Assembly: GCA_024644015.1 (NCBI GenBank)
Contig: JAHELV010000023.1
Location: 9,036 to 41,545 of the forward strand
Length of the DNA stretch: 32,510 bases
Origin: Nitriliruptorales bacterium
Lineage (GTDB): Bacteria > Actinomycetota > Nitriliruptoria > Euzebyales > JAHELV01
Reading direction: 5' to 3'
This document shows positions 2 to 29,690 of the stretch, one piece after another (positions within the stretch are counted from its first letter, which is position 1; every line of letters starts with the position of its first letter). Below the pieces are notes generated by a model that had not been told where the DNA came from, made no database searches, and saw only the letters and a program-made list of their open reading frames with translations. A program made the position numbers and the translations under genes.

Positions 2-2038
2 ATGACCGCCGCAACCAAGGGAATCGTGCCGTTCCTGATGATCGGCGCGGTCCTGATGATGGTCGTGCCCATCCCACCATCGATGATGGATCTGATGCTG
101 GCGGTCAACATCACGCTCGCGGTCGTGGTGTTGCTGGCGGTCCTGACGGTGCGCGACAACCTTGACCTGTCGGTCTTTCCCTCATTGCTGCTGCTGTCGA
201 CGTTGCTGCGCCTCGCGCTGAACGTGTCGTCGACGCGGCTCATTCTGCTGAACGGGTACGCCGGCAAGGTCATCGAGACGTTCGGTGGGTTCGTCGTCGG
301 GGGTTCGCTGGTCGTCGGACTGGTCGTCTTCCTCATCCTGGTGGTCATCCAGTTCGTCGTGATCACCAACGGTGCGGGCCGCGTGGCGGAGGTCAGCGCC
401 CGCTTCTCGCTCGACGCGATGCCGGGCAAGCAGATGGCGGTCGACGCCGACCTGTCCGCCGGCCTGATCGATGAGCGCGAGGCTCTGGACCGCCGCCGCC
501 GCATCGGCCGCGAGGCTGACTTCTACGGCGCCATGGACGGCGCGTCGAAGTTCGTGAAGGGTGACGCGATCGCTGGCATCGTGATCGTCGCGATCAACCT
601 GCTCGGCGGCTTCACGATCGGCGTCGCGCAGCTCGGTCTGAGCCTCGGCGAGGCGCTGTCGCGGTTCTCGCTGCTGACAGTCGGTGACGGGCTGGTCAGT
701 CAGATCCCGGCACTGCTGATGTCGATCGCGACGGGCCTGCTGGTCACGAAATCCAGCGACGAGCACGAACTGGCACCGCTGTTGGCGAAGCAGCTGCTGT
801 CGAACCCTCTGGCGCTACGGATCGGGTCGCTCGTCATCGGCGCGATCGGTCTGCTGCCGGGGCTGCCGAAGATCCCGTTCCTCGCGATCGCGGGTGGCCT
901 GTGGCTGCTGTCGACCCGGGCCGCCGACGCCGACGCCGAGCCTGACATGACCGAGGCGCCGGTGCTGCAGACGTCGCCGGACGACCCTGAGGCCCTCGTC
1001 GGACAAATGCGGATCGAACCGCTCGAACTGCACCTGTCGTACGACACGCTGGATCTCATCGACCCCGGCCGGGGAGGCGATCTGCTCGAGCGGGTGCGCG
1101 CACTGCGCCGTCAGATCGCCCTCGAGCTGGGGATCATCATGCCGTATGTGCGCACTCGCGACGACGTCGCGCTGCCGTCAGCCACCTACGTGATTCTGCT
1201 GCACGGCGTCGAGGTGGGCCGTGCCAGCGCTCCGTCGGGCCGCGCACTCGCGCTGCCGGCCGACGACGGCAGCTCACTGATCGCCCTGGGCGGTCAACAG
1301 ACCACCGAGCCCGTGTTCGGGCTGACCGCGTTCTGGATCGCCGACGAGGTCCAGGCGGCCGCCGCAGCCACAGGTGCGACCGTCGTCGACCGCGGGTCGG
1401 TCATCATCACGCACCTGGCCGAGGTCGTCCGGACGAACGCCGCGGACCTGCTGTCGATGCAACAGGTGCAGACGTTGGTCGAGGGCATGCGGACCGACGA
1501 ACCACTGCTGGCCAACGAGGTCGGCGGCGAGCACGTGTCGCTCGGCCTGCTTCACCGCGTGCTGCAGGAGCTGTTGCGCGACCGGGTGAGCATCCGCGAT
1601 CTGGCGCGGATCGTGTCCGCCGTCGCGGTACGAGCCAGGCAGAGCCAGTCGCTGGAGCAACTGGTCTCGGGGGCGCGCGAGGCGGTGGGTTCAGCGATCT
1701 GTGCAGCGGTCGCGCCGGACCGGACAGTCGATCTCGTGACCCTCACGCCCGGGCTCGAAAGCTATCTCCACGAACGGTTGCGCGAGATCGACGGTGCGCT
1801 GCACCTCGTCACCGAGCCGGAGCAGACGCGACACATGGTCGACCAGGTCATGGCGCACATGAAGCATGCGGAGGGACGGCCGTTGGCTGTTGTCTGCGGT
1901 CAGCTGCTGCGGCGCCCGCTGCAACGGCTGCTCAGCGCCGCGTCGGTATCCGTGCCGGTGCTGGCGTATCCCGAGCTCGCCCCGAACCTCGACATCCGTC
2001 AGCAGGGAGTGATCGACCGTGTCACAGTCGATGCCTGA
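2..2038 (+). CDS. flhA: FlhA, flagellar type III export gate protein
   Basis: FlhA is the large membrane subunit of the flagellar type III export gate; its cytoplasmic domain docks export substrates and chaperones. The 678 residues match the usual length. The N-terminal half carries the family's hydrophobic segments and signatures: FPSLLLLSTLLRLALNVSS (about 59-77), then the FHIPEP-region block with LDAMPGKQMAVDADL (about 138-152), and READFYGAMDGASKFVKGDA (about 170-189). The C-terminal half is the soluble docking domain. The ATG lies at the second base of the window, so its ribosome site cannot be seen and a slightly earlier start is possible, but the N-terminus aligns with the usual beginning of the family. 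The 3' end overlaps the next gene by 20 bases, so this is the distal part of a flagellar operon that begins upstream. Confidence 0.97.
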   Translation: MTAATKGIVPFLMIGAVLMMVVPIPPSMMDLMLAVNITLAVVVLLAVLTVRDNLDLSVFPSLLLLSTLLRLALNVSSTRLILLNGYAGKVIETFGGFVVGGSLVVGLVVFLILVVIQFVVITNGAGRVAEVSARFSLDAMPGKQMAVDADLSAGLIDEREALDRRRRIGREADFYGAMDGASKFVKGDAIAGIVIVAINLLGGFTIGVAQLGLSLGEALSRFSLLTVGDGLVSQIPALLMSIATGLLVTKSSDEHELAPLLAKQLLSNPLALRIGSLVIGAIGLLPGLPKIPFLAIAGGLWLLSTRAADADAEPDMTEAPVLQTSPDDPEALVGQMRIEPLELHLSYDTLDLIDPGRGGDLLERVRALRRQIALELGIIMPYVRTRDDVALPSATYVILLHGVEVGRASAPSGRALALPADDGSSLIALGGQQTTEPVFGLTAFWIADEVQAAAAATGATVVDRGSVIITHLAEVVRTNAADLLSMQQVQTLVEGMRTDEPLLANEVGGEHVSLGLLHRVLQELLRDRVSIRDLARIVSAVAVRARQSQSLEQLVSGAREAVGSAICAAVAPDRTVDLVTLTPGLESYLHERLREIDGALHLVTEPEQTRHMVDQVMAHMKHAEGRPLAVVCGQLLRRPLQRLLSAASVSVPVLAYPELAPNLDIRQQGVIDRVTVDA

Positions 2039-3200
2039 GGTCACCGAGTTCGACGACCGAATCGTCGTCGAGGCACCCTCCGCCGAGGCTGCGTTGGAGG
2101 CCGTGACCGAACGGCTCGGTACCCGCGCGCGCATCGCCAAGGTCGAGCACGTCCGCCGCGGTGGTGTGGCCGGGTTCTTCGCACGCGAGCTCGTCCAGGT
2201 CGTGGCGACCCCGCGGACCGGTGTGACGCCACCCGCCGACCGCAGGTCTGCGTCCCAGACGGTCGACAACACACACGCCCCTACGACACCGTCCGCCGCC
2301 GTTCCCAGTGGCCCACGGTCCGAGGACGCGAGCGACGCCCTCGATGCCCTGGCAGGCATCGACTTCGCGAGCGTGCTGCGACAGCACCTGCCGGCTGACT
2401 CGCCGGCTCCGGCGACCGAGGACGGCCCGCGTGCGGAAACCGCCCCGCCGGCCCCGGTGAACACGACTGGGGACCCGTCGCGTGCGGACGTTGCCGCACC
2501 CGCCACCCGCGTCGAGCGCACGCCATCGTCGGCCGACGCAGCCATCCGGGACGCCGGCCGGCCGGCCGGCGTCGCAACCAACGACGTGCGCCCTGCCGAC
2601 CGCCGAGCGGCTGGTACGACGTCGCGGTTGCACTCGTCGGCGCCGCAGCAGCCTGGAACGCCGCGGTGGACGGTCGACAACCTCTGCCGGCTGGGGCTGC
2701 CGCGCCCGCTTCTCGAGGCGGTGGCCGGCCTGGAGCCGACCGACGACGCGGGCTGGACCTACGCGCTCGCGCGATGTCTCGAACGGCTCTGCACGCAGGT
2801 GCCACCGCAAGCCGACGTGATCGTCGGTCCGGAAGCGACGCGCCTGGCCGTCGCTTTCGACCTGCCAGTGCGCTGGCCCGGCGAGGCTCCGCCGATCGGC
2901 ACGTTCGTCGCGCCGATCGGTGACGGCCCGATGGAGCGCGCGTGGCTCGCCGCAGTGCGCGGCGACCGCAGGCTGCATCTGGTGGTTGGCGGTGAGTGCT
3001 GGCGCGGCCTGTTGTTCGAACGTCCCGAGATGCTGTCGTCAGCCGGGGCCACGAGCCTGTGTGAGACGCTGCGTCTCGCGGCCGAGCTGGACGTCGCGGT
3101 CGGTGTGACGCGGCTGTCGGAGGACCACTTCGGCCGTCCGAACCCGGTCGCGCTCGCTGTTGCCGTCCGTGCGCAGCTGCCGGTCGTCGAGCGCGGGTAG
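2019..3200 (+). CDS. FlhF-like protein with degenerate GTPase domain
   Basis: Starts at GTG with an AGGGAG ribosome site about 10 bases upstream, inside the end of flhA, the usual position of flhF. Residues 8-64 resemble the FlhF N-terminal domain: a region around EAALEAVTERLGTRARIAKV followed by RRGGVAGFFARELVQVV. Residues 65-215 are a long Pro/Ala-rich linker. Residues 216-393 look like a worn SRP-type NG domain: LCRLGLPRPLLEAVAGL resembles the N subdomain, VIVGPEATRL (267-276) lies where the P-loop GPTGVGKTT should be, and TRLSED (364-369) lies where the TKLDE motif should be. No Walker A lysine is present, so GTP hydrolysis is unlikely. FlhF normally helps place flagella at the pole. This protein may keep a binding or scaffold role. 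The family call rests on position and the N-terminal domain, and the pseudo-GTPase reading is inference. Confidence 0.65.
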   Translation: MSQSMPEVTEFDDRIVVEAPSAEAALEAVTERLGTRARIAKVEHVRRGGVAGFFARELVQVVATPRTGVTPPADRRSASQTVDNTHAPTTPSAAVPSGPRSEDASDALDALAGIDFASVLRQHLPADSPAPATEDGPRAETAPPAPVNTTGDPSRADVAAPATRVERTPSSADAAIRDAGRPAGVATNDVRPADRRAAGTTSRLHSSAPQQPGTPRWTVDNLCRLGLPRPLLEAVAGLEPTDDAGWTYALARCLERLCTQVPPQADVIVGPEATRLAVAFDLPVRWPGEAPPIGTFVAPIGDGPMERAWLAAVRGDRRLHLVVGGECWRGLLFERPEMLSSAGATSLCETLRLAAELDVAVGVTRLSEDHFGRPNPVALAVAVRAQLPVVERG

Positions 3201-3215
3201 GAGGTGCGAGAGCAG

Positions 3216-3464
3216 ATGGGCTCCGGACCACTCCGCCAGGCGGTTGCGATCGCAGGCCTGATGGCGTTGATCCCGACCATGGCGTCCGTAGCGCTCGGCC
3301 GGCTCACACCCGAGGTCGGCGCCGTACGGGCGCTGGCGACGCTCGTTGGGGCGATCGTGTTCGGCCGCGTCTGTGCCGTGGTCATGCGCTACTACGCGCA
3401 CGTCGTCGAACGGGCGCGACCGGATGGCCGCGAGCGGCGTGCGCGGCGGGGGACCGACCAGTGA
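3216..3464 (+). CDS. Small membrane protein in flagellar operon
   Basis: An 82-residue protein with a first hydrophobic stretch (AVAIAGLMALIPTMASVAL) and a second one containing ALATLVGAIVFGRVCAVVM, followed by a very basic tail rich in Arg. This suggests two membrane segments with a cytoplasmic tail. I chose the ATG at 3216 because AGGAGG at 3199-3204 stands 11 bases before it; an in-frame GTG at 3204 lies within that ribosome site and would give 86 residues. The gene begins just after the FlhF-like gene and its stop overlaps the start of the peptidase gene (GTGA), so the genes are translationally coupled. I do not recognise the family. Its position, where flhG might be expected in other operons, suggests a part in flagellar assembly, but nothing in the sequence shows it. 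Confidence 0.75.
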   Translation: MGSGPLRQAVAIAGLMALIPTMASVALGRLTPEVGAVRALATLVGAIVFGRVCAVVMRYYAHVVERARPDGRERRARRGTDQ

Positions 3465-4054
3465 CGGTCGAGCCCGTCTCCGCTGCGCACGTGCACCCTG
3501 TCGGCCGCGCGCCGGCCAACGGTCCGGCGTTCGCGGCCATGCTGCGCGACCGTCTGGAGACACCGGGGACGCTGCCGACCGTGACGTTCGGCGAGATGAC
3601 CGGCGTGCAGCCGGCGCCGATCGAACCAGCTCTGCCGGCGCCGCCGGTCACGGTGAGCAGCCCCGGCGGCGGACTGCGCTGGCCGGTCCGTGGTCGGATC
3701 ACGTCGGAGTTCGGTCCGCGCCATCACCCTGTGCTCGGTACCACCCGTGACCACGACGGACTGGACATCGCAGCGCCGACCGGTACACCGGTGCTGGCTG
3801 CCGCCGGCGGCACGGTCACCTTTGCAGGCAGTCGCGGCGGCTACGGCAACATGGTCATCGTCGCGCATCCCAACGGGCTGGAGACACGGTACGCGCACCA
3901 GCATCAGCTGACGGTCAGCGCCGGCCAGTCCGTGCAGGCAGGCCAACGCATCGGCTCCGTCGGTTCCACCGGCATGTCCACCGGCCCGCATCTGCACTTC
4001 GAGGCTCGGCGTGGCGGCACGCCGGTCGATCCGCGGGCGCTGCTCGCTCGCTGA
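3461..4054 (+). CDS. M23/LytM-family peptidoglycan peptidase, flagellar operon
   Basis: A 197-residue protein whose C-terminal two thirds are a peptidase M23 (LytM) domain, a zinc endopeptidase that cuts peptide cross-links in peptidoglycan. The zinc ligands are visible: the HxxxD motif in DHDGLDIAAPTGTPV, and HLHFE near the C-terminus, preceded by GSTGMSTGP. The domain begins at LRWPVRGRITSEFGPRHHP. The first 60 or so residues are Pro/Ala-rich and contain no hydrophobic segment, so no Sec signal peptide or membrane anchor is visible. The start GTG overlaps the upstream stop by four bases. Its place in the flagellar operon suggests that it opens the cell wall for the growing rod, the job done by the muramidase domain of FlgJ in other bacteria; that role is inferred. 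Confidence 0.88.
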   Translation: MTVEPVSAAHVHPVGRAPANGPAFAAMLRDRLETPGTLPTVTFGEMTGVQPAPIEPALPAPPVTVSSPGGGLRWPVRGRITSEFGPRHHPVLGTTRDHDGLDIAAPTGTPVLAAAGGTVTFAGSRGGYGNMVIVAHPNGLETRYAHQHQLTVSAGQSVQAGQRIGSVGSTGMSTGPHLHFEARRGGTPVDPRALLAR

Positions 4055-4065
4055 ATCGTTCAGCG
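4049..4065. terminator. Hairpin between convergent operons
   Basis: CGCTGAA and TTCAGCG form a perfect seven-pair stem around a TCG loop, overlapping the stop codon of the M23 gene. It lies between two convergent operons, the right place for a terminator serving the rightward operon, and it is symmetric for both strands. There is no T-run, so termination is not certain. Confidence 0.4.
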
Positions 4066-4087
4066 CCCGGTCGTCGCGGCGTCGTCC

Positions 4088-4345
4088 TCAACCGCGATGC
4101 GTTGGTGGCGCATCCGCCGCGCGACGACTGTGGGTGCGCAGGATCTCTGTCGCACTCTGTGCGTTGCGGACGGCCTCGGCGTTCTCCCGGACGATCTGCT
4201 CGTAGATCTCGTCGCGGTGCACCTGGATGTCGCGCGGTGCGTCGACGCCGATGCGCACCTGGCCGTTGCGGACGTCGACGACCGTGACGACCACGTCGTT
4301 GCCGATGACGATCGACTGCCCGGCGCGGCGGGTCAGCACGAGCAT
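4088..4345 (-). CDS. csrA: CsrA, carbon storage/flagellar translational regulator
   Basis: CsrA is a small dimeric RNA-binding protein that blocks ribosome sites, classically that of flagellin mRNA in Bacillus. The 85 residues open with the standard MLVLTRRAGQSIVIG, and continue through VRIGVDAPRDIQVHRDEIYE, which includes the conserved RNA-contacting Arg. The tail is 20 or more residues longer than a minimal CsrA and rich in Arg and His. The ATG overlaps the TGA of fliW by one base (TGATG), so the two proteins are translationally coupled, in keeping with their partnership: FliW binds CsrA and relieves repression. A longer open frame upstream in the same phase is only the shadow of fliW. Confidence 0.96.
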   Translation of the reverse strand: MLVLTRRAGQSIVIGNDVVVTVVDVRNGQVRIGVDAPRDIQVHRDEIYEQIVRENAEAVRNAQSATEILRTHSRRAADAPPTHRG

Positions 4346-4797
4346 CAGCTGCGCTCCAGCTCGATGATGGCGCGTAGCGGCAGATCGTCGCCGAGCACCA
4401 CCTGCCGGCCGTGGTTGGTACGGGCGTTGACCACGAACGGGCCTCGCAGGTTCACGTACAGGCGCCTGGCCTCGGCGTCGATCGAGACCGGGCAGAACAC
4501 GACGGCCTCCTCGGCGCGTTCGAGGCCCAGTTCCTGCTGGTCGCTGTCGTCGAGCACTGGCGCGTAGTCGGGGAAGAACAGCCACGGCACGGTCACGACC
4601 ATCGACACGGAGTCGTCGTCCAGGCTTGTCAGCAGCTGAAAGCCGCTGTCCTCGACCAGCTCGTGGAGCTTGAACCGGCGCTCGTCGGGAAAACCCGGAA
4701 TGCCCGCCGGGAAACGCAGCACGCCATTGGCGGTGTCGGGAACGTCGGTGTCGGTCACGGGCCGTCCTGCCTCGGTCAGTGCGTCGGGTAGCTGCAC
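4345..4797 (-). CDS. fliW: FliW, flagellar assembly factor and CsrA antagonist
   Basis: FliW binds both flagellin and CsrA; when flagellin is exported, free FliW sequesters CsrA and flagellin translation resumes. The 150-residue protein shows family hallmarks: RFPAGIPGFPDERRFKL near the N-terminus, FQLLTSLDDDSVSMVV in the middle, and LYVNLRGPFVVNARTNHG followed by QVVL toward the end. The start is a GTG with a GAGGA sequence about 12 bases upstream, a rather wide spacing. It stands 24 bases downstream of flgL and overlaps csrA, giving the flgL-fliW-csrA order familiar from Bacillus. The flagellin gene itself is not in this window. Confidence 0.94.
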   Translation of the reverse strand: MQLPDALTEAGRPVTDTDVPDTANGVLRFPAGIPGFPDERRFKLHELVEDSGFQLLTSLDDDSVSMVVTVPWLFFPDYAPVLDDSDQQELGLERAEEAVVFCPVSIDAEARRLYVNLRGPFVVNARTNHGRQVVLGDDLPLRAIIELERS

Positions 4798-4821
4798 AAC
4801 TACGCTTGGTCCTCGGCGATC

Positions 4822-5721
4822 CTAGCTGAGGAACATCGCAAGTCCGGGAGGCAGGCTGCGGGCCGTGGCCGCGAGCGCGGTCTGGTAGGCGGTCTCCTCG
4901 GTGCGCAGGCGCACGATCGCCTCGGCCAGGTCCACGTCGGCCAGCTCACTGCGCTCGGTGGCCAGGGAGGCCGCAAGTTGGTGTGTCCGCACGGTCGCCG
5001 TGTCCACGCGGTTGGTGCGGGCGCCAACGGCCGCAAGCTGCCGGCCGATCTGGTCCATGCCGGCGTCGACGGCGTCGAGCCCGGCCGCGACCATCGCGGT
5101 GTCGCCGTTGGCGACGGCGGCCGACATCTGACCTACGAGTGCGAACACGTTGTCGGCGAATCCCGCCGGCGGCGTGAACCAGAACGCGTCCTGGGCCGAC
5201 GTGTTGACCTGGACGACCTCGGTTGCTCCGACCTTCCGTTGCACCTGCCCTGCGTCGCCGGTGTAGGTGAACGCGATGCCCGAGCCGGCGACCGCGTCGC
5301 CGGCGACATCGCCACCGAACAGGGGTCGGCCGTGGTGCCGCGTGTTCGCGATGCCGACCAACTCCTCGGCGATGGCATCGAGCTCCGCCGAGATGGCCGT
5401 CCGATCGCCGTCGGGCCGTGTGGTGGCCGCGGACACCATCAGTTGGCGCACCCGCTGCAGGCGGGACATGGCGGTTTGCAGGCTGGCATCGGTGGCGTTC
5501 AACCAGCTCGTGGCATCGGCTGCGGCGCGCAGCTCGCGTTGGTGTCCGCGGTCGGCGGCGTCGAGCGTCATGACCCGGCTCATCGCCGCGGGGTCGTCTG
5601 ACGGACGTCGGAGGCGGGTGCCGGTCGTGGCGTCGTCGGTCGCCTGCTGCAGTCGCGTGAAACGCGCGGAGATCCGCTCGATCGAGCGGGTCGCGATGGC
5701 AAGGTTCGTGATGCGCGTCAT
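4822..5721 (-). CDS. flgL: FlgL, flagellar hook-filament junction protein
   Basis: FlgL (HAP3) joins the hook to the filament and is secreted by the flagellar export machine. The 299-residue protein has the flagellin-like ends of the family: an N-terminal helix with MTRITNLAIATRSIERI and LQQATDDATTGTRLRRPSDD, and a C-terminal coiled coil with ERSELADVDLAEAIVRLRTE followed by YQTALAATA. The middle (about 130-230) is the variable exposed domain. There is no N-terminal signal peptide, as expected for a type III substrate. The ATG follows the flgK stop after a single base, so the two genes are coupled. Confidence 0.94.
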   Translation of the reverse strand: MTRITNLAIATRSIERISARFTRLQQATDDATTGTRLRRPSDDPAAMSRVMTLDAADRGHQRELRAAADATSWLNATDASLQTAMSRLQRVRQLMVSAATTRPDGDRTAISAELDAIAEELVGIANTRHHGRPLFGGDVAGDAVAGSGIAFTYTGDAGQVQRKVGATEVVQVNTSAQDAFWFTPPAGFADNVFALVGQMSAAVANGDTAMVAAGLDAVDAGMDQIGRQLAAVGARTNRVDTATVRTHQLAASLATERSELADVDLAEAIVRLRTEETAYQTALAATARSLPPGLAMFLS

Positions 5722-5722
5722 G

Positions 5723-7096
5723 TCATCGTCCGACGATGCCGGTGCGGTTGATCAGGACGTCGAGCGCCTCGTCGAGCGCGGTCATTGCCCTCGACGCGGC
5801 CTCCAGGCCACGCTGGTGCTGCAGCAGCGACACCATCTCCTCGTCGAGGTTGACGCCGTGTGCGGCTTCTCGGGCCGACACCGCGCCGGAGTGCAGCCCG
5901 TTATGGGTGCTGGCGGCAGCCGCCGCGATCTTCGTGGCATCCCCCATGCCGATCACCAGAGTGCGCAGCCGGCTGGCGAGCGGAGGCGAGCCCAGGCCCG
6001 GTGGATCCTGGTCACGCAGAGTCCCGAACCGCTGCGCGTTCGTCGCGTCGTGCAGCGCGTGGTTGCCCAGACCGGCGGTTGCGATGTCAAAGCCGTCGAT
6101 ACCGGCCGCGAGTGCGATGTCGTCGGCGCCGGTAGCTGCGAGCAGTGGCGGGCCGCCGTCGGTCCATGAGGCACCGCCGGGGTCGTCTGCCGCCGACCCG
6201 GCGGCGTTGACCGCGTTGACGGCGTCACGCAGGTCGAGCGCGAACCGATCGAGTTTGGCGCGCAGCGAGGGGAGGTCACTGGTCGCGGCGAGGTGGAGAC
6301 CTCCGACTTCGCCTCCGGCGCTGACCTGGGTGGCCGGGCTGGAGACCGTCACGCCTGTGGTCGGATCGTACGACAGCGTTCGTACGCTGGGCACTGCCGG
6401 CGTCTGCACGATCCGCTGGCCGTCGAGCAGCACATGGACTGTGCCGTCGGCCTGTGGCTCGGTGGTGACGCCGACGATCTGCGACAGCTGGTCGATCAGC
6501 AGGTCCCGTTCGTCCATCGCCGCGTTGAGCGGTGTGCTGCTGGTGGAGATGGCGCGGTTGAGCTCATCGAGGTTCGCCAGCAGCTGGTTGGCCTCGGTGA
6601 GCGACAGGTCGATCTGCTGCGTGGCTTCGTCGGCCAACGTCGTCCACCCCGCCGCGGTGGCGCGGACAGTCCCGGCGAGGCTGTCCAGCGCCCGTACCAC
6701 GGCGTCGCGGATCGCGGGGTCAGCGGGGTCGAGGGCCAGCTCGTCGAAGCTGTCGAACAGACCGAGTAGCGCCTGCTGGATGCCATTGCCGGGCTCACCG
6801 CTGAGCTCTTCCGCCTGTTGCAACATCGACGCCCGCGCGGTTGTGTACGAGGCGGTGGCGCCCGTTGACCGCACACGGGTGTCGAGGTGGCCTTCCCGCA
6901 GGCGGTTCACGGCCAGGACGTCGACACCCATACCGATCTCACCGAAGTTGCGTTGCCACGGCGGCATGGTCCCGAGGTCGGCCCGCTGGCGGGTGTATCC
7001 CGGGGTGGTGGCGTTGGCGACGTTGTTCGCGGCCGTGTCCATGCCGACCTGGCCGGCACGGATGCCGCTCAGTGCGATCTGCAGGCCCTCGAACAT
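5723..7096 (-). CDS. flgK: FlgK, flagellar hook-associated protein 1
   Basis: FlgK (HAP1) sits between hook and FlgL. The N-terminus has the rod/hook/HAP signature: MFEGLQIALSGIRAGQVGMD, then NNVANATTPGYTRQRADL. The C-terminal helix carries GVNLDEEMVSLLQHQRGLEA followed by ALDEALDVLINRTG, the standard ending. At 457 residues it is shorter than most FlgK proteins (roughly 500-550), so the variable outer domain is small. It begins 17 bases after the flgN-like gene and its stop is one base from the flgL start. Secretion is expected through the flagellar type III apparatus, with FlgN as chaperone. Confidence 0.95.
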   Translation of the reverse strand: MFEGLQIALSGIRAGQVGMDTAANNVANATTPGYTRQRADLGTMPPWQRNFGEIGMGVDVLAVNRLREGHLDTRVRSTGATASYTTARASMLQQAEELSGEPGNGIQQALLGLFDSFDELALDPADPAIRDAVVRALDSLAGTVRATAAGWTTLADEATQQIDLSLTEANQLLANLDELNRAISTSSTPLNAAMDERDLLIDQLSQIVGVTTEPQADGTVHVLLDGQRIVQTPAVPSVRTLSYDPTTGVTVSSPATQVSAGGEVGGLHLAATSDLPSLRAKLDRFALDLRDAVNAVNAAGSAADDPGGASWTDGGPPLLAATGADDIALAAGIDGFDIATAGLGNHALHDATNAQRFGTLRDQDPPGLGSPPLASRLRTLVIGMGDATKIAAAAASTHNGLHSGAVSAREAAHGVNLDEEMVSLLQHQRGLEAASRAMTALDEALDVLINRTGIVGR

Positions 7097-19526: not shown

Positions 19527-21689
<2,163 letters not shown>

Positions 21690-21927
21690 CTCGTCAGGGT
21701 CCGGCGCCGTTCGCAGCGCGCCCATGGCGACGTCGGGAGGTGTGAAATCACCGGAGACAACACGGGGGCGCTGATGATACGCTCCAGGCGCCGTATCGGG
21801 GCCGGGGTGAGAAACGCCCGTCGCGCAGGATCTCGACGGGCCTGCCGTCGCCGGTCATCGCGGCCCAGCCAGGGGGCTGACGGGGCGTCACGCACTCGCC
21901 GGCTCCACCGAGTGAGACGAGGCAGCG
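21690..21927 (+). other. Structured intergenic leader upstream of BCCT transporter
   Basis: A 238-base gene-free gap. GGTG-TGAAAT-CACC (near 21740), GATACG (21776-21781) with CGTATC (21792-21797), and CACTCG with CGAGTG (about 21892-21914) could form three short hairpins, the last just before the ribosome site GACGAGG of the transporter gene. I looked for the conserved cores of glycine, c-di-AMP (ydaO), guanidine and cobalamin riboswitches and did not find them. No convincing promoter hexamers were seen. Confidence 0.3.
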
Positions 21928-23682
21928 ATGGTCGACAGGAACCTGACGGAGCTCGAGCTGCAATACCGCCAGCTCGAGGAGGAGGAGCGCCGCCTCCGAC
22001 GCGAGGCGATCGTGAACCGCCGCCGGTTCGAAGGCCTCCAGGTCGACCCGGAGGTCGACTTCTATCCCGAGGTGGCCGACCGCGAGCCCGGTGACACGAA
22101 CATCGTGAAGTGGGGCTTCGATCTGCACCCGCAGGTGTCGCTGTGGTCGGCGCTGCTGATCACGCTGTTCATCGTCGCGACGGTCGTGTTCCCCGACGAG
22201 GCGGAGTCGGCCTTCGGCGCCGGGCTCGCGTTCGTCAACTCGGCCTTCGGCTGGTTCTACATCCTCGCGGCCAACGTGTTCGTGCTGGTCGGGCTGTTCT
22301 TCGCGTTCAGCCGGTTCGGCAAGATCCGGATCGGCGGTCCTGCCGCGGTCCCGGAGTTCTCGACCGGCGCGTGGTTCGCGATGCTCATCAGCGCCGGCAT
22401 GGGAATCGGACTGATGTTCTGGAGCGTCGCGGAGCCGATCTTCCATCTGGACGCACCGCCGCCGATCTTTGGGGTCGATCCGGGCACGCAGGACGCCGGG
22501 AAGGTCGCGCTGGCGACCACCTTCTTCCACTGGGGGATCCATCCCTGGGGCATCTATGCGCTGGTCAGCCTGGCGCTGGCGTTCTTCGCCTACAACCGCG
22601 GGCTGCCGCTGACGTTCCGCTCCGTCTTCTACCCGCTGCTGGGCAAGCGGATCTACGGTCCGTGGGGCAACGCGATCGACGTCCTGACGGTGCTGGCGAC
22701 GCTGATCGGCCTGGCGACATCACTGGGGTTCGGCGTCGGTCAGGCCGCGGCGGGACTGAACTTCCTGTTCGGCTGGCCGCAGGGAACCGGGTTCCAGGTC
22801 CTGCTGATCGCGGTCATCACCGCCATGGCGACCCTGTCGGTCATCGCCGGCCTCGACGCGGGCGTCAAGCGGCTCAGCCAGATCAACATGTTCCTGGCAG
22901 GCGGTTTCCTGCTGTTCATCGTGCTCGTCGGCCCGACGCTGTTCCTGCTGTCGGCGTTCATCCAGGGCATTGGCTTCTACGGGCAGGTGCTGCCCGAGCT
23001 GTCCTTCTGGAACGAGGCGTTCAGCGAGGGTGGCTGGCAGGGCAGTTGGACGGTCTTCTACTGGGGCTGGTGGATCTCGTGGTCGCCGTTCGTGGGCATG
23101 TTCATCGCGCGCATCTCCAAGGGGCGTTCCATCCGGGAGCTGATCCTCGGCGTGATCATCGTCCCGTCGCTGCTGTCGTTCCTGTGGATGGCGGTGTTCG
23201 GCGGAGCGGCACTGCGACTGCAACTCGAGGGCGTCGCTGACATCTCGACCGCCGTCAACGAGAACGTCGCCACCGCGCTGTTCGCGATGCTGCAGGCGTT
23301 TCCGTTGACCGAGTTCACATCCATCGTCGGCATCCTGCTCGTCGTGTCGTTCTTCGTCACGTCGTCGGACTCCGGGTCGCTTGTCGTCGACCACCTGACG
23401 TCGGGTGGCAAGCTCGACTCGCCCAAGCCGCAGCGCGTCTTCTGGGCCACGATGGAGGGTCTCGTCGCCGCCGTGCTTCTGCTCGGCGGCGGGCTGAGCG
23501 CGCTCCAGACGGCGGCAGTGATCACGGGCCTGCCGTTCGCCATGATCCTGCTCGTCATGTGCTGGAGCATGTACCGCGCCTTCCATGAGGAACTCGACGT
23601 GCTCGTGGAGTACTACGAAGCCGCGGAGTTCCGGTTGCGCCATCCGTCGCTGGCGGGTTCGGAGTCGACGACCGATGAGTGA
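21928..23682 (+). CDS. BCCT-family glycine betaine/choline transporter
   Basis: A 584-residue secondary transporter of the betaine-carnitine-choline family, which takes up trimethylammonium osmolytes. A charged cytoplasmic N-terminal helix (residues 1-36, rich in Glu and Arg) precedes twelve membrane segments. Family markers are GMGIGLMFWSVAEP (157-170), where the GMGIG form marks Na+-coupled members such as BetP, TSLGFGVGQ (264-272), and the tryptophan signature YWGWWISWSPFVGMFIARIS (378-397). The C-terminal tail (about 555-584) is acidic rather than the basic osmosensing tail of BetP. Its last 8 bases overlap the binding-protein gene, so transporter and binding protein are co-translated. 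Confidence 0.95.
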   Translation: MVDRNLTELELQYRQLEEEERRLRREAIVNRRRFEGLQVDPEVDFYPEVADREPGDTNIVKWGFDLHPQVSLWSALLITLFIVATVVFPDEAESAFGAGLAFVNSAFGWFYILAANVFVLVGLFFAFSRFGKIRIGGPAAVPEFSTGAWFAMLISAGMGIGLMFWSVAEPIFHLDAPPPIFGVDPGTQDAGKVALATTFFHWGIHPWGIYALVSLALAFFAYNRGLPLTFRSVFYPLLGKRIYGPWGNAIDVLTVLATLIGLATSLGFGVGQAAAGLNFLFGWPQGTGFQVLLIAVITAMATLSVIAGLDAGVKRLSQINMFLAGGFLLFIVLVGPTLFLLSAFIQGIGFYGQVLPELSFWNEAFSEGGWQGSWTVFYWGWWISWSPFVGMFIARISKGRSIRELILGVIIVPSLLSFLWMAVFGGAALRLQLEGVADISTAVNENVATALFAMLQAFPLTEFTSIVGILLVVSFFVTSSDSGSLVVDHLTSGGKLDSPKPQRVFWATMEGLVAAVLLLGGGLSALQTAAVITGLPFAMILLVMCWSMYRAFHEELDVLVEYYEAAEFRLRHPSLAGSESTTDE

Positions 23683-24838
23683 GTCACGAATGCCGACGTT
23701 CACGCCGGCCGCCGACGAGCGGAGCGGCCGCAGGGTTGCCGATCGGCGCGCAGCGCGGGGCCGTACCACTCGGCTGGTCGCGACACTTGCCGTCGCGGCG
23801 CTGCTCGCCGTCGGCTGCGGCACCGCAACGGAGGTCGCAGGCGGCGACGGCGGCCCGGCCGCGGGTGCCGAAGAGGGGCAGCAGACGGAGCAGGTCAAGA
23901 TGGCGCGGGCGACGTGGGACACCGGCTTCATGCAGGCCGAGATCTACCGCCAGCTGCTCACCGAGCTGGGCTTCGACGTCTCGGATCCCGCCGCGGCGAC
24001 CCGCCTGCCCAACGTGTTCTACCCGGCGCTCGCCCGTGGCGATTTCGACTTCTGGGCGAATGGCTGGTTCCCGCTCCACGACATCTTCCTCGAGCGTGAG
24101 CTCATCACGGGTCAGCAGGACGAGGCGCCCGTCTCGCCGGTCGGGTTCGAGGTCAGGGCCGGCGCGCTGCAGGGCTACCTCGTCGACCGGGCGACCGCGG
24201 AGGAGCTGCAGCTGACGTCGATGTCGGACTTCACGCGCGACGACGTCGCCGCGGCGTTCGACGACGACGGCGACGGCAAGGCCGACCTCATCGGCTGCAA
24301 CCACGGGTGGGGCTGCAACCTGGCCATCAACGAGCACATCGAGCAGCTCGACTGGGGACCGAACGTCGAGCAGATCGTCCGCGACTATCCGTTCCTCTTC
24401 GAGGACGTGATCCGCAAGGTCGAGGCCGGCGAGCCGGCGTTGTTCTACACCTGGACACCGAACTGGACGGTCGATGTGCTCGTCCCCGGGACCGACGTCG
24501 TGTGGTTGGAGTCGCCGTCACTGCCCGACGAAGAGGGCATGACGTCCGTCGAGGGGCTGCAGGGGTGCCCCAGCGACCCGTGCAACCTCGGGTGGGTGGT
24601 CAACGACATCCGCGTCGTCGCCAACAACGACTTCCTAGACGCGAACCCAACGGCGGCGGCGCTGTTCGAGGCGGTCGAGATCCCCCTCGGCGACATCCAG
24701 GCGCAGAACGCCAAGATGCGCGCGGCCGGCAACTACACCGACGCGAACATCGTCGACGACGCGGCCGCGTGGATCGCGGAGAACCGCGACACGGTCGACG
24801 GCTGGCTGGAGCAGGCCCGTGCGGCCGGCGAGAGCTGA
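23675..24838 (+). CDS. Glycine-betaine-type (OpuAC/ProX) binding lipoprotein
   Basis: A 387-residue substrate-binding protein of the OpuAC/ProX class for quaternary ammonium solutes. A basic N-terminus leads to a hydrophobic segment and lipobox LAVGC (Cys48), so it is a membrane-anchored lipoprotein. The mature domain runs from about 75: RATWDTGFMQAEIYRQLL, DFDFWANGWFPLH, CNHGWGC, LFYTWTPNWTVDVLVPG and VVNDIRVVANNDFLDANP, with the many Trp residues that form the aromatic cage in this family. DDDGDGKADL (196-205) resembles an EF-hand calcium loop. No ABC permease or ATPase gene is present nearby; the partner in the operon is the BCCT transporter. The ATG at 23675 overlaps the transporter's end by 8 bases; an ATG at 23690 is an alternative. 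Confidence 0.9.
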   Translation: MSESRMPTFTPAADERSGRRVADRRAARGRTTRLVATLAVAALLAVGCGTATEVAGGDGGPAAGAEEGQQTEQVKMARATWDTGFMQAEIYRQLLTELGFDVSDPAAATRLPNVFYPALARGDFDFWANGWFPLHDIFLERELITGQQDEAPVSPVGFEVRAGALQGYLVDRATAEELQLTSMSDFTRDDVAAAFDDDGDGKADLIGCNHGWGCNLAINEHIEQLDWGPNVEQIVRDYPFLFEDVIRKVEAGEPALFYTWTPNWTVDVLVPGTDVVWLESPSLPDEEGMTSVEGLQGCPSDPCNLGWVVNDIRVVANNDFLDANPTAAALFEAVEIPLGDIQAQNAKMRAAGNYTDANIVDDAAAWIAENRDTVDGWLEQARAAGES

Positions 24839-24848
24839 CCGCCGCCGT

Positions 24849-24887
24849 GGCCGGCTGGTGGCGCGCGTCCGCCACCGCGGTCCGGCC
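24849..24887. terminator. Bidirectional hairpin between convergent osmolyte genes
   Basis: Nested perfect stems: GGCCGG (24849-24854) with CCGGCC (24882-24887), and inside it GGTGGC (24857-24862) with GCCACC (24871-24876) around an eight-base loop. It fills most of the 58-base gap between the binding-protein gene and the channel gene, so it could end transcription from both sides. No T-run follows on either strand. Confidence 0.55.
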
Positions 24888-24896
24888 CCGCCCTGG

Positions 24897-27023
24897 TCAG
24901 CCGCCGACCGCCGCGGTGCTGCCGAACCAACGGTCGCGCAGTTGGTCGTAGGCGCCGGACTCGATCAGTTCGAGCAGGGCGCCGTTGATGCGTTCGCGCA
25001 GTGGGCTGTCGATCGGTACGGCGAGCCCGTAGCGCACCTGCTCGAACACCGGCCCGACCACTCGGACCTCGCCGTTGCCCTCGTGCGACGCGTGGAACTG
25101 CAGCACCGGCGCGTCGAAGGCGATCGCATCGGCGTCGCCGCTGTCGAGCTGGGCGTAGGCGTCCTCGACGCGCCCGACCGTGACCGGGCCGACACCCTGC
25201 CGTGACAGGTAGTCCTCGGCCGCAGTGCCCGCCACGGTAGCGACCTTGTGACCGACCAGGTCGTCCGGGCCGTTGATGGCCCCACGCAACTCCTCCACCG
25301 CGAGCGTGGACGTGAGGCTTGCGGTGAACGACGCGAACACGAAGTACCCGGCGATCATCCACAGCAGTGCCCAGCCCCGACCCAGGTGACCCTTGGGCGC
25401 CTTGTCGCCGTACCCGACGGTGGTCACCGTCACAGCGGACCACCAGAACGAGTCCCAGATGCCCTGCCGGTAGTTGCTGTGGAAGTCGGGATTGTCGCGG
25501 CGCTCGAACCACCACACGAGGTGCGCGGACAGCGCCAGCGTGGCGAAGAAGAGGACCACCATCCACAGCGCGTTGCTGCGCAGCAGCAGGCCCCCGATGC
25601 GTCGTAGCTGCGTGACCGGCCCGCCGGTCTCGGCGGCCGGCACCATCACCTGCAGGCCCGTCTCGAAGATCGAATGGGTGAAATCGACGCGCTCCTCGCG
25701 ATCCGCGGTCACACCGAGGCCGGCGATCGCCACGTCCGCGGCGCCGCGATCGACGTCATCGAGCTGCTTGGCGATGCTGTTGACCCCGTAGAGCTCGTAA
25801 TCGACCCCCAGCTCCTCTGCGATCAGGTCGACCAGTTCGACCTCGAAGCCGCCGAACACGCGGTTCTCGTAGATGACGAACGGCGGGAACGAGCGCGCGG
25901 CGACGCGCAACGTGTCCAGCTCACGGTCACGTGTGAGCGCCCGGGCCCCATCCCCTGACTCGGGCACGGACGCAGGGTCGGCTGCGCTGAGCCAGCCGTC
26001 GACCAGGCCGGGATGGCCGCTGATCCATGCCCGGGCCTGCCGCTCGATGTCGGCGAAGTCACCCTCGCCGGCCGCCATGCGGGCGTTCTGGTCGAGGATG
26101 TCGTTGAGCGGGATCTCGATCGCCTCGAGCAGCCGCGCCGCAGGCGGGTTGGCGTCCAGGAAGCCACGGTTGGCCACGACCTGGATGTCGTTCGCCGGCC
26201 AGCCGGTCTGGCACGGGTCGGCCGGACAGCCCGCAAGACCCGCGATCTCGGTGCTGCCCGGCGCCAGCCGCTGACCGCGCGGGCGACTCGGGAACGGCGT
26301 CTCCAGCCAGCGGACGTCGCGACCCGGCACGAGCTCACCGACGGTCCAGTTCGGCGTGAACGTGTAGAACAGAATCGGCTCGCCCGCGGTGTGGCGGTCG
26401 ACCGTCTCGCGCATCAGCAGCGAGTAGTCGCCCTGGATCTGCTCGACGGTGTCGCCGAGCCCGTACGCCTCGAGGTGGTGGTCGATGACGTCGGCGCACG
26501 CCCACTCGACGTTGCAGCCGATCAGGTCGGCCCTGCCGTTGCCGTCGACGTCGAACAGTTCCGCGATGTCGGGGTCGCGCAGCGCCTCCAGATTGGTGAC
26601 GCCGTGCCGCTCCGCGGTCGCCTGATCGATCAGATACCCCTGGAGCGCGCCGGCTTCGACCTGGGTGCCGACGACCTCGATCGCGTCGGCGATGCGGTCC
26701 TCGCCCAGATACTGCTGGTGGAGCGGAAACCACCCGCTCGCCCAGAAGTCGACGTCGCCCGCGGCCGCCGCGCGATAGAACTCCTCGTTGTCCATCGTGC
26801 GCGGCCCGCTGACCTCGTAGCCCAGGTCATCGAGCAGCTGGCGGTAGATCTCGGCCTGGAACCAGCCGGTGTCCCACGTCGGCCGTGCCATGCTGATGGT
26901 GGCGTCGGGCTCCGTCTGCGCCAGGGCCGCCGCGCCCGTCGACAGGGTGAGCAGGACCACGGCGATCGCAACCAGCCGCCACGAGCGGTCGCGGCGGGTG
27001 CTGCCGGGCGAACGGATCACCAT
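24897..27023 (-). CDS. OpuAC-domain fused to GluR0-like K+ channel
   Basis: One uninterrupted frame of 708 residues. Residues 1-36 are a Sec signal peptide ending AALAQ, with no lipobox cysteine. Residues 42-345 are a glycine-betaine (OpuAC/ProX) binding domain, clearly paralogous to the neighbouring lipoprotein (PTWDTGWFQAEIYRQLL, DVDFWASGWFPLH, YTFTPNWTVGELVPG, DVDGNGRADL). After a linker, residues 369-462 are lobe S1 of an ionotropic-receptor ligand domain, with the carboxylate-binding Arg442 in TADREERVDF. TM1 is about 485-505, the pore loop 521-540 holds the K+ filter TVGYGD (535-540), TM2 is about 550-572, and S2 is 574-700 with Thr600 (AGTAAEDYL) and Asp637 (AFDAPVL). It is predicted to be a ligand-gated K+ channel with an extra osmolyte sensor. 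The upstream extension of the frame to 27860 overlaps parC and was rejected. Gating and ligands are inference. Confidence 0.88.
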   Translation of the reverse strand: MVIRSPGSTRRDRSWRLVAIAVVLLTLSTGAAALAQTEPDATISMARPTWDTGWFQAEIYRQLLDDLGYEVSGPRTMDNEEFYRAAAAGDVDFWASGWFPLHQQYLGEDRIADAIEVVGTQVEAGALQGYLIDQATAERHGVTNLEALRDPDIAELFDVDGNGRADLIGCNVEWACADVIDHHLEAYGLGDTVEQIQGDYSLLMRETVDRHTAGEPILFYTFTPNWTVGELVPGRDVRWLETPFPSRPRGQRLAPGSTEIAGLAGCPADPCQTGWPANDIQVVANRGFLDANPPAARLLEAIEIPLNDILDQNARMAAGEGDFADIERQARAWISGHPGLVDGWLSAADPASVPESGDGARALTRDRELDTLRVAARSFPPFVIYENRVFGGFEVELVDLIAEELGVDYELYGVNSIAKQLDDVDRGAADVAIAGLGVTADREERVDFTHSIFETGLQVMVPAAETGGPVTQLRRIGGLLLRSNALWMVVLFFATLALSAHLVWWFERRDNPDFHSNYRQGIWDSFWWSAVTVTTVGYGDKAPKGHLGRGWALLWMIAGYFVFASFTASLTSTLAVEELRGAINGPDDLVGHKVATVAGTAAEDYLSRQGVGPVTVGRVEDAYAQLDSGDADAIAFDAPVLQFHASHEGNGEVRVVGPVFEQVRYGLAVPIDSPLRERINGALLELIESGAYDQLRDRWFGSTAAVGG

Positions 27024-27034
27024 CTGCGCGTTCC

Positions 27035-27066
27035 CGGTGTCGACGGCAGGTGAGCGCCCGACACCG
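27035..27066 (-). promoter_or_regulatory. Inverted repeat just upstream of the channel gene
   Basis: CGGTGTCG (27035-27042) and CGACACCG (27059-27066) are perfect eight-base inverted halves separated by 16 bases, starting 12 bases before the channel ATG. It could be an operator or a structure in the mRNA leader. The rest of the gap to parC (27067-27272) shows no convincing promoter. Confidence 0.35.
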
Positions 27067-27272
27067 CCGAGCGGCCGAGGCCGGCGGGGCGCCGAACCAC
27101 CTCCACAGGATACGTGGGGGTCCGTCCGATCGGTCCCGCGTGCCGGGCGCGGCTCGCCGCCAGCCGTGCGACGCAGGGTGAGCCCATGCGGCGTTCTGCG
27201 CGACCTGAACGTCATCGCCGCGCCCACAAGGCACAATCGATGCGCAGGTACCTCATGACCGTGGAGTGCGCG

Positions 27273-29690
27273 ATGACCCGGCAGCCCAGTCTGCTCGATT
27301 CGTCGGCGGGTGGATCCGGCCGCGGCATCCGCCCGGTCAACATCGTCGACCGCATGCAGCAGGCGTTCCTCGACTACTCGATGAGCGTCATCGTCGGTCG
27401 GGCGCTGCCGGACGTCCGCGACGGGCTCAAACCGGTGCAGCGCCGGATCCTGTACGCAATGTGGGAGGCCGGTCTGCGCCCCGACCGACCGCTGCGCAAG
27501 TGTGCACGCGCCGTGGGTGAGGTGATGCAGAAGTACCACCCGCACGGCGACACGTCGATCTACGACGCGCTCGTGCGCATGGCGCAGGACTTCACGATGC
27601 GCGCGCCGCTGGTCGACGGACACGGCAACTTCGGGTCGATCGACGGCGACAACGCGGCCGCCATGCGCTACACCGAAGCGCGCCTGTCCGAGATCGCGAT
27701 GGCGCTGCTCGACGGCATCGACGAGCAGACCGTCGACATGGTCGCCAACTACGACGGCGACGACGACGAACCCGTCGTGCTGCCGGCGCGTCTTCCCAAC
27801 CTGCTGCTCAACGGGTCGACCGGCATCGCCGTCGGCATGGCGACCAACATCCCCCCGCACAACCTCGCCGAGCTGGTCGAAGCGTGCCTGCTGCTCATCG
27901 ACCGTCCCGAGGCGACCCTCGACCAGCTGCTCGACAAGGTGCCGGCGCCCGACTTCCCGACGGGTGGCCGCATCGTCAGCACCGATGGGATACGCCAGGC
28001 CTACGCCACGGGCCGCGGCGCGATCACCGTCGAGGCGATCGCGACCACCGAGATGCGGTCCGGCGGCATGCCCCGCATCATCGTGACCGAGATCCCGTAC
28101 CAGGTGAACAAGGCGACGCTGCTGGAGCGGATCGCCGAGCTCGTCAAGACCAAGAAGATCGACGAGATCCGCGACCTGCGCGACGAGTCGTCACGTGACG
28201 GGATGCGCATCGTCATCGAGCTCAAGCGCGGTGAGGATCCCGCGCGGGTGCTGGCCAAGCTGTACCAGCGCAGCGACCTGCGGACGAACTTCAACGCCAA
28301 CATCGTCGCGCTCCACGGCGGGCAGCCACGCACGCTGGGCCTGCGGGACTGCCTGCTCGCGTACGTCGCGCATCAGCGGACCGTGCTCACACGGCGCACC
28401 ACCTACCGCCGCGATCGCGCTGCGGCCCGCGCGCACGTCCTTGCAGGGCTGCTGATCGCGCTGGACCACCTCGACGAGGTGATCGCGCTGATCCGGGCCG
28501 CCCCCAGTGCCGACCACGCGCGCACCGAGCTGATGGCGCGCTACGACCTGTCCGAGATCCAGGCGACCGCCATCCTGGACATGCAACTGCGTCGCCTCGC
28601 ACAGCTCGAGCGGTCCAAGATCGCGACGGAGCACGCGGAGCTGCAGGCGATGATCGCCGAGCTTGAGGCGATCCTTGCGGACCCCGCGAAGCTCGATCGC
28701 CTCCTTGCGACCGAGCTGCGGGCGCTGCGCAAGGCACACGCCGATCCGCGCCGCAGCCGGCTCGACGGCCGGGAACCGGGTGACGACGACGCGGACGAGG
28801 CGCTGCCCCAGCTCGAAGCGCAACCGGTCACCGTCTACGTCACGGCCGGGGCGGTCGTGAAGGCCGTTGCCCGGCGCCGCACCAGCACACCTCACCGCGA
28901 CGCGCGCGATCCGGTCGTGGCGGTCGTGCGGGCAACCACGGCTGACGACCTCCTGCTGGTCGACGCCGAGGGCGGCGGGTACCGCGTGGCACTGGGTGAC
29001 GTGCCGGTGGTGCCGGCTCGCCAGCGCGGCGTGCCGATCGTGCAGCTGTACGGCTCGCCGCCGGACGCGCCGATCGTCGGCGCGGTCGCACTGGTCGAAG
29101 GCGCTGACATCGTGACACTGTCCGCGCAGGGGTTGATCAAACGCTCCGCGGTCGCCGAGTACCGCGGGCGGACCCAGCAGATGATCGCCGCGGGCGTACG
29201 CGATGACGACGAGCTGGTCGCGGTGGCACGCTGCACCGACAGCGACGAGATGATGGTGGGGCACGACGGCGGCCTGGTCATCCGCTACGCGGCCGACGAC
29301 GTCCGCACCATGGGACGCCCGTCGTTCGGCGTGGCCGCGCAGCAGCTCCCCGAGGGCGCGCGCTGCGTCGCACTGTCGATCGTCACGCCGGCCGACGCCG
29401 GCCAGGCGGTCGAGGTCGTGACCATCGACCCGGCGGGCGCGGCAAAACGCAGTCCGCTCGATGACTACCCGTCACAGAAGCGCGGTGGCAAGGGCGTGCT
29501 GTCGGGCGCTGCACCCCTGGCGTGGTGCGGGCTCGCCACCGACGCCCACCTCGTGACCGAGGAGGGGCCGCAGGTCGTACGGGCGGCGCAGCTCGATCAG
29601 GTCGGCCGCACCGGTCGGCCGGTACCGACCGTGCCCGCGTTGACCGGCCAGGTCGTCCCCGAGCCGCGCACGGACGATGCAGTTCGCTGA
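27273..29690 (+). CDS. parC: Type IIA topoisomerase subunit A (ParC/GyrA)
   Basis: The DNA-cleaving subunit, partner of the parE-like gene. The winged-helix/tower part shows [40 protein letters not shown] and [14 protein letters not shown] with the catalytic Tyr; the quinolone-pocket position equal to E. coli GyrA Ser83 is Thr and the Asp87 equivalent is kept. [20 protein letters not shown] and the tower follow. The C-terminal beta-pinwheel has QKRGGKG about 80 residues from the end, a GyrA-box-like motif in a late blade instead of the first one. I chose the ATG at 27273 with GGAG six bases upstream (805 residues); ATGs at 27240 and 27255 are possible. It overlaps the next gene by 14 bases. 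Confidence 0.9.

Follow-up and report, generated by a model that had tools for sequence, protein, structure and literature searches.

A complete ProX-type substrate-binding domain heads a GluR0-type ion channel in a family of bacterial proteins recovered from 14 genomes. The domain order, its conservation across these genomes, the conserved filter and ligand pockets and, in all 12 Actinomycetota concerned, a linkage to BCCT and ProX genes are directly supported by the analysis. The favoured reading, to which a probability of roughly 0.5 is assigned, is that of a GluR0-type K+ channel with a dual input, betaine and an amino acid, which would link K+ flux to the betaine outside the cell; that ligands bind and that they gate the pore are inferences, made in the absence of binding or electrical data.

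The stretch of DNA analysed, hereafter the window, spans 32,510 nucleotides of a Nitriliruptorales genome. An earlier note, compiled from sequence alone, had described a 708-residue frame at 24897-27023 without stating its strand. The frame is confirmed: an open-reading-frame check returns a single frame of 708 aa on the minus strand, with an ATG at 27023, and the plus-strand frame over the same interval is interrupted by stops. The gene is organized as follows, with the supporting evidence in brackets.

24897..27023, minus strand: whole gene, ProX-GluR0 fusion channel, 708 aa (frame, Pfam, NCBIfam, PDB sequence search)
26916..27023, minus strand: signal peptide, residues 1-36 (sequence and hydropathy)
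25980..26900, minus strand: N-terminal ProX/OpuAC clamshell, residues 42-348 (profile, sequence and fold matches)
25914..25979, minus strand: linker from the ProX domain to S1, about 20 residues (349-370), unconserved and of low pLDDT (alignment and model)
25623..25913, minus strand: S1 half of the amino-acid-type ligand-binding domain, residues 371-467, with invariant T439 and R442 (Pfam, PDB, alignment)
25503..25577, minus strand: TM1, residues 483-507 (hydropathy and model)
25401..25472, minus strand: pore helix and K+ filter loop, residues 518-541, TTVGYGDK (sequence, alignment, model)
25287..25388, minus strand: TM2, residues 546-579 (Pfam and model)
24915..25286, minus strand: S2 half of the ligand-binding domain, residues 580-703, with invariant D637 (PDB and alignment)

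The signal peptide displays a hydrophobic core at about residues 14-32 and an AxA-type end (ALA-Q), and is devoid of a lipobox. The ProX domain that precedes S1 is 307 residues long and is recognized by several searches: Pfam locates OpuAC at residues 42-334 (1.5e-47; 162.8 bits against a gathering threshold of 21.2), NCBIfam assigns residues 20-351 to the ProX equivalog with 341 bits, well over its cut-off of 215, and the first half of the protein matches Escherichia coli ProX in the PDB (1r9l, 1.1e-63). In the second half, Pfam reports SBP_bac_3 at 374-701 (5.1e-24), split by the pore, Lig_chan at 484-593 (4.4e-15) and Ion_trans_2 at 506-574 (9.7e-13). The corresponding PDB match is 2pyy (9e-43), the ligand-binding domain of a bacterial iGluR homologue which is here taken to be from Nostoc, followed by animal and plant iGluRs. 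The codons for TVGYGD occupy 25404-25421 on the minus strand, and TM2 carries an iGluR-like gate segment, SFTASLTSTLAVEEL. Hydropathy discloses no hydrophobic segment after S2, and the further transmembrane segment of eukaryotic iGluRs is thus absent.

An AlphaFold2 monomer model, built from a nine-row alignment, comprises two clamshells, TM1 at 483-507, a pore helix at 518-534 and TM2 at 546-579. Mean pLDDT is 73.6 and pTM 0.43, with low confidence for the linker at 351-367; at this pTM the predicted placing of the two clamshells relative to each other is unreliable. Foldseek retrieved ProX 1r9l as top match (TMt 0.83), with LBD-TMD chains of AMPA receptors next. The earlier proposal of a signal peptide, an OpuAC/ProX domain and an S1-TM1-pore-TM2-S2 channel is therefore upheld by profile, sequence and fold searches and by the model. 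Failure of the N-terminal domain to match OpuAC by profile had been named as a refuting outcome and did not materialize. The statement that the N-terminal clamshell of animal receptors belongs to another family (LIVBP) also holds, the window domain being OpuAC in Pfam.

The architecture search over actinobacterial genomes that the earlier note had suggested found the fusion in 12 Actinomycetota belonging to two classes; two cyanobacteria complete the set of 14. Within the class of the window, Nitriliruptoria, full copies are confined to three of 66 genomes, namely that of the window, G008 and the named strain Salsipaludibacter albus AS10 (G035). As most species of this class lack the channel gene, it is an optional part of osmoadaptation. 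The second actinobacterial class harbours the fusion in 9 of 198 sampled genomes, and the cyanobacterial sample in 2 of 386 (G584, an uncultured cyanobacterium MAG, and G757), with the plain channel present in many more. No fusion was encountered among 398 sampled genomes of Pseudomonadota, many of which encode both halves as separate proteins; plasmids yielded separate ProX only and no place covering 80% of the window protein. A scan of contigs relied on two short peptide patterns (GIWDSFW and WMIAGYF) and, for this reason, was blind to the second actinobacterial class, which came from a later genome search. Five other fusions, drawn from three phylum- or class-level groups, were submitted to Pfam and all five contain OpuAC, SBP_bac_3, Ion_trans_2 and Lig_chan.

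This distribution bears on the possibility that the protein does not function as a channel or that two genes were wrongly joined during assembly. In favour of it stands a truncated copy in G001, a genome of the same genus (L082 10586-11467), from which the ProX domain and about 80 codons across TM1 are missing while the remainder stays in frame; this short copy may be a decayed gene or may reflect an assembly fault in that MAG. Against it stand 13 further full-length copies, including that of the named strain, which are approximately 40-62% identical to the window protein. The joining of two genes by misassembly, a further refuting outcome named at the outset, is ruled out by these copies from 13 other genomes, and the explanation as a whole is all but excluded.

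The pattern of conservation indicates that the added domain has been kept under constraint. Compared with the window protein, the other fusions are on average 59% identical in the ProX domain, a value at least as high as those for S1 (48%) and S2 (55%), and 77% identical in the pore loop, whereas the linker retains only 18%. The K+ signature TVGYGD, already recognized in the earlier note, is part of a filter, TVGYGDK, that is invariant in all 14 fusions. By contrast, a GluR0-like protein in a Hyphomicrobiales MAG (L028 5917-6996) reads MGGFEN where others have TVGYGD; it is a prokaryotic iGluR that is possibly not K+-selective.

The betaine box of E. coli ProX includes W65 and W188 (Schiefner 2004, cited in PMC8601584), and W140 and H69 are taken to be box residues of the same work. 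In the alignment W65, W140 and W188 correspond to W98, W174 and F222 of the window protein and H69 to H102, so that the box differs by a single, still aromatic, change from Trp to Phe at 222. The W65 and W140 positions are Trp in every one of the 14 fusions; the W188 position is Trp in ten and Phe in four (the window protein and three others), and the H69 position is His in 13, with Gln in G550. The residue that follows W140, G141 in E. coli, is Gly in 25 of 26 stand-alone ProX proteins, but Ala, Ser, Thr or Val in 11 of the 14 fusions. Together with Phe at 222, this replacement suggests that affinity or specificity may have shifted, and a tuned affinity is one possibility. Betaine binding by the N-terminal ProX domain is regarded as likely, although it is inferred without binding data.

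A purely structural role, in which the ProX clamshell would serve assembly, dimer pairing or stability without ligand control, needs to be considered at this point. N-terminal domains of animal iGluRs have such roles, and the linker is unconserved and of low confidence. Nevertheless, the ProX ligand contacts are strictly kept (W98 and W174 in 14 of 14, H102 in 13 of 14), which would be needless for pure structure, and the linkage to betaine transport described below also speaks against this view, rendering it unlikely. The condition of the linker does imply that loose coupling fits at least as well as tight control.

In the ligand-binding domain of the channel, T439 and R442 of S1 and D637 of S2 are invariant in all 14 fusions; R442 and D637 align with 2pyy, and an S1 Arg and an S2 Asp are named glutamate contacts (Ger 2010, PMC2950845). 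Amino-acid binding by S1/S2 is likely on these grounds, again by inference and without binding data. An alternative is that S1/S2 no longer binds an amino acid and that betaine is the sole gating ligand. Parts of S1 do differ between the fused actinobacterial and the plain GluR0-like channels, but the invariance of the three presumed alpha-amino-acid contacts makes this alternative very unlikely.

The neighbourhood of the channel gene, which was not reported in the earlier note and was added by the follow-up analysis, provides a link to betaine uptake. The relevant genes are listed below.

21928..23682, plus strand: BCCT-family (betaine/choline/carnitine) transporter (Pfam, NCBIfam)
23675..24838, plus strand: ProX-type protein with a lipobox-like signal, LAVGC (Pfam, NCBIfam)
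BCCT-ProX pair loci: window 21928-24838; L010-L016, L019, L020, L062, L071-L078

The two genes overlap by 8 bases. The neighbouring ProX is a paralogue of the N-terminal domain of the channel (55% identical), and its gene meets the channel gene tail-to-tail across a gap of 58 bases. The channel gene adjoins a BCCT gene and a separate ProX gene in 12 of 12 actinobacterial genomes, in two arrangements: tail-to-tail with ProX in four (window, S. albus, G008 and G480) and head-to-head with BCCT in eight. Persistence of the linkage despite rearrangement points to a functional connection, and the adjacency to a betaine uptake unit makes an osmotic job the likeliest. In the two cyanobacterial genomes, G584 and G757, no BCCT or ProX gene adjoins the fusion, and this absence counts against the main reading. 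Around the channel gene the window contains genes for BCCT, ProX and type II topoisomerase, none of which encodes an ABC permease or ATPase partner for the ProX domain; elsewhere in the same genome there are ABC-type betaine systems, with ProV-like ATPases above cut-off on other contigs.

In these Actinomycetota a BCCT gene repeatedly overlaps or closely precedes a ProX gene, also where the channel is missing. Two genomes of the same genus, G002 and G003, contain BCCT-ProX with no channel found nearby, the G002 contig ending close by. A binding protein partnering a BCCT transporter would be unusual, and no paper on such a partnership was found in the full-text literature searched. The BCCT-ProX(-channel) module is situated between genes for type II topoisomerase subunits B and A (gyrB-like and gyrA-like; window 19572-29690), a placement common to G001 and G003 (L081, L082) and an unusual site for an osmolyte module. 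Flagellar genes at the left end of the window (2-7096: FlhA-type FHIPEP, flagellin and FlgK) suggest a motile organism. A scan for promoters and terminators was uninformative.

Phylogenetic trees shed partial light on the origin of the fusion. In the ProX-domain tree a single clade (support 97/93) unites 13 of the 14 fused domains and excludes the BCCT-linked ProX proteins; the remaining domain, that of G584, is a long branch, and one clade for all 14 is not rejected (p-AU 0.41). This separate clade rules out that the channel recently acquired a copy of the ProX gene beside it. In the tree of the channel part the actinobacterial fusions constitute one clade (100/99), whereas the cyanobacterial fusions group with plain cyanobacterial channels (96/94), although one clade for all is again not rejected (p-AU 0.11). 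Two scenarios remain possible and both fit: either the fusion arose a single time long ago, passed between phyla and was followed by loss of the N-terminal domain, or it arose twice.

The gene linkage and the trees also bear on a capture-and-hand-over model, in which the ProX domain would bind betaine but serve mainly to concentrate it for the adjacent BCCT transporter, a task that the separate ProX may also perform, with gating of the pore left to the amino-acid domain alone. The 12 of 12 linkage, the conserved betaine box and a flexible linker are compatible with it. However, a separate ProX already adjoins and could do the job without a channel, the fused ProX clade is distinct from the neighbouring ProX, and the cyanobacterial fusions have no adjacent BCCT; the model is deemed unlikely.

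Under the preferred reading, that of a dual-input K+ channel, the protein would assemble as a tetramer around a K+-selective pore and expose both binding domains on the extracellular side, as inferred from the family and, for that location, also from the signal peptide. An alpha-amino acid bound to S1/S2 would open the pore, and glycine betaine or proline betaine would close the ProX domain and shift gating via the short linker, by analogy with the N-terminal domains of NMDA receptors, which modulate gating. Background for such a role comes from two sources. GluR0 of Synechocystis conducts K+, enables E. coli to take up K+, exposes both termini on the outside and alters cell-volume responses in high KCl (PMC13099474). 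After hyperosmotic upshock K+ rises and is then replaced by compatible solutes such as imported betaine (PMC8844918). When external betaine is present and imported, the channel may let K+ move and so help to swap the emergency solute, K+-glutamate, for betaine. The betaine-dependent gating of a K+ pore put forward in the earlier note accordingly has circumstantial support only, from the BCCT-ProX linkage and the conserved betaine box, with binding and gating both inferred. Whether betaine modulates gating at all could fall either way in the absence of electrical data, and the choice of opening over closing is a guess with only the slightest lean.

A bolder reading portrays the protein as a coincidence detector, in which external betaine and an external amino acid, for example released glutamate, would jointly control one K+ pore. 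The balance tips slightly against it. If true, the change from K+-glutamate to betaine would be governed directly by ligand gating, and the channel would be the first of its kind, as no earlier channel is known to sense betaine via a binding-protein domain; bacteria would also have arrived independently at the layout in which neuronal glutamate receptors carry an N-terminal domain.

Among known systems the closest are GluR0 of Synechocystis (Chen et al. 1999) and the prokaryotic iGluRs of Group 1 (Ger et al. 2010, PMC2950845). The window channel likewise has the order S1-TM1-P-TM2-S2, and the GYG K+ filter, the S1 Arg and the S2 Asp are common to both, as is, by inference, an external S1/S2. 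GluR0 has no N-terminal domain (PMC6385376), which bears out the earlier statement on known channels of this type; the fusions possess, in addition, a complete ProX domain and, among Actinomycetota, BCCT-ProX neighbours. By every tested feature save the added domain the fusion is a GluR0-type channel, a variant and not a plain member, with K+ conduction, amino-acid gating and extracellular termini inferred from the family and the signal peptide. The 2010 survey looked for and reports S1-TM-P-TM-S2 forms (PMC2950845), and a physiological role for a prokaryotic glutamate-receptor channel was first reported only in 2026 (PMC13099474). No report of OpuAC, ProX or betaine joined with a glutamate-receptor channel was found in the open-access literature searched, most subscription papers lying outside it; within that scope the third refuting outcome, an existing characterization of the architecture, did not arise and the claim that the architecture is undescribed holds.

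Measured against E. coli ProX of the ProU system (PDB 1r9l), the N-terminal domain of the fusion qualifies as a complete ProX in profile, sequence and fold, with the aromatic box kept. It differs in heading an ion channel, where E. coli ProX serves an ABC importer, in forming its own clade, and in the replacement of W188 by Phe in some fusions and of G141 in most. ABC importers with fused substrate-binding domains (OpuA type, GlnPQ) likewise join a binding protein covalently to a membrane protein, but they are transporters, whereas the partner here is a channel pore. What distinguishes the present family is an independently acquired sensor of known ligand class encoded, in Actinomycetota, beside a transporter for the same class; this gives a testable role, osmotic solute exchange, and may offer a scaffold for betaine-controlled K+ channels.

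Animal and plant iGluRs (AMPA, NMDA, GLR) share the plan of an N-terminal clamshell, a ligand-binding domain and an inverted K+-channel-like pore, a SYTANLAAF-like gate segment and, for the AMPA LBD-TMD, a fold match. They differ in their LIVBP/ANF N-terminal domain, in a further transmembrane segment after S2 and in mostly lacking a GYG filter. Since the N-terminal domain of the fusion derives from another binding-protein family, the common layout was reached independently, and the family constitutes a natural experiment on how an added clamshell gains control of an iGluR pore.
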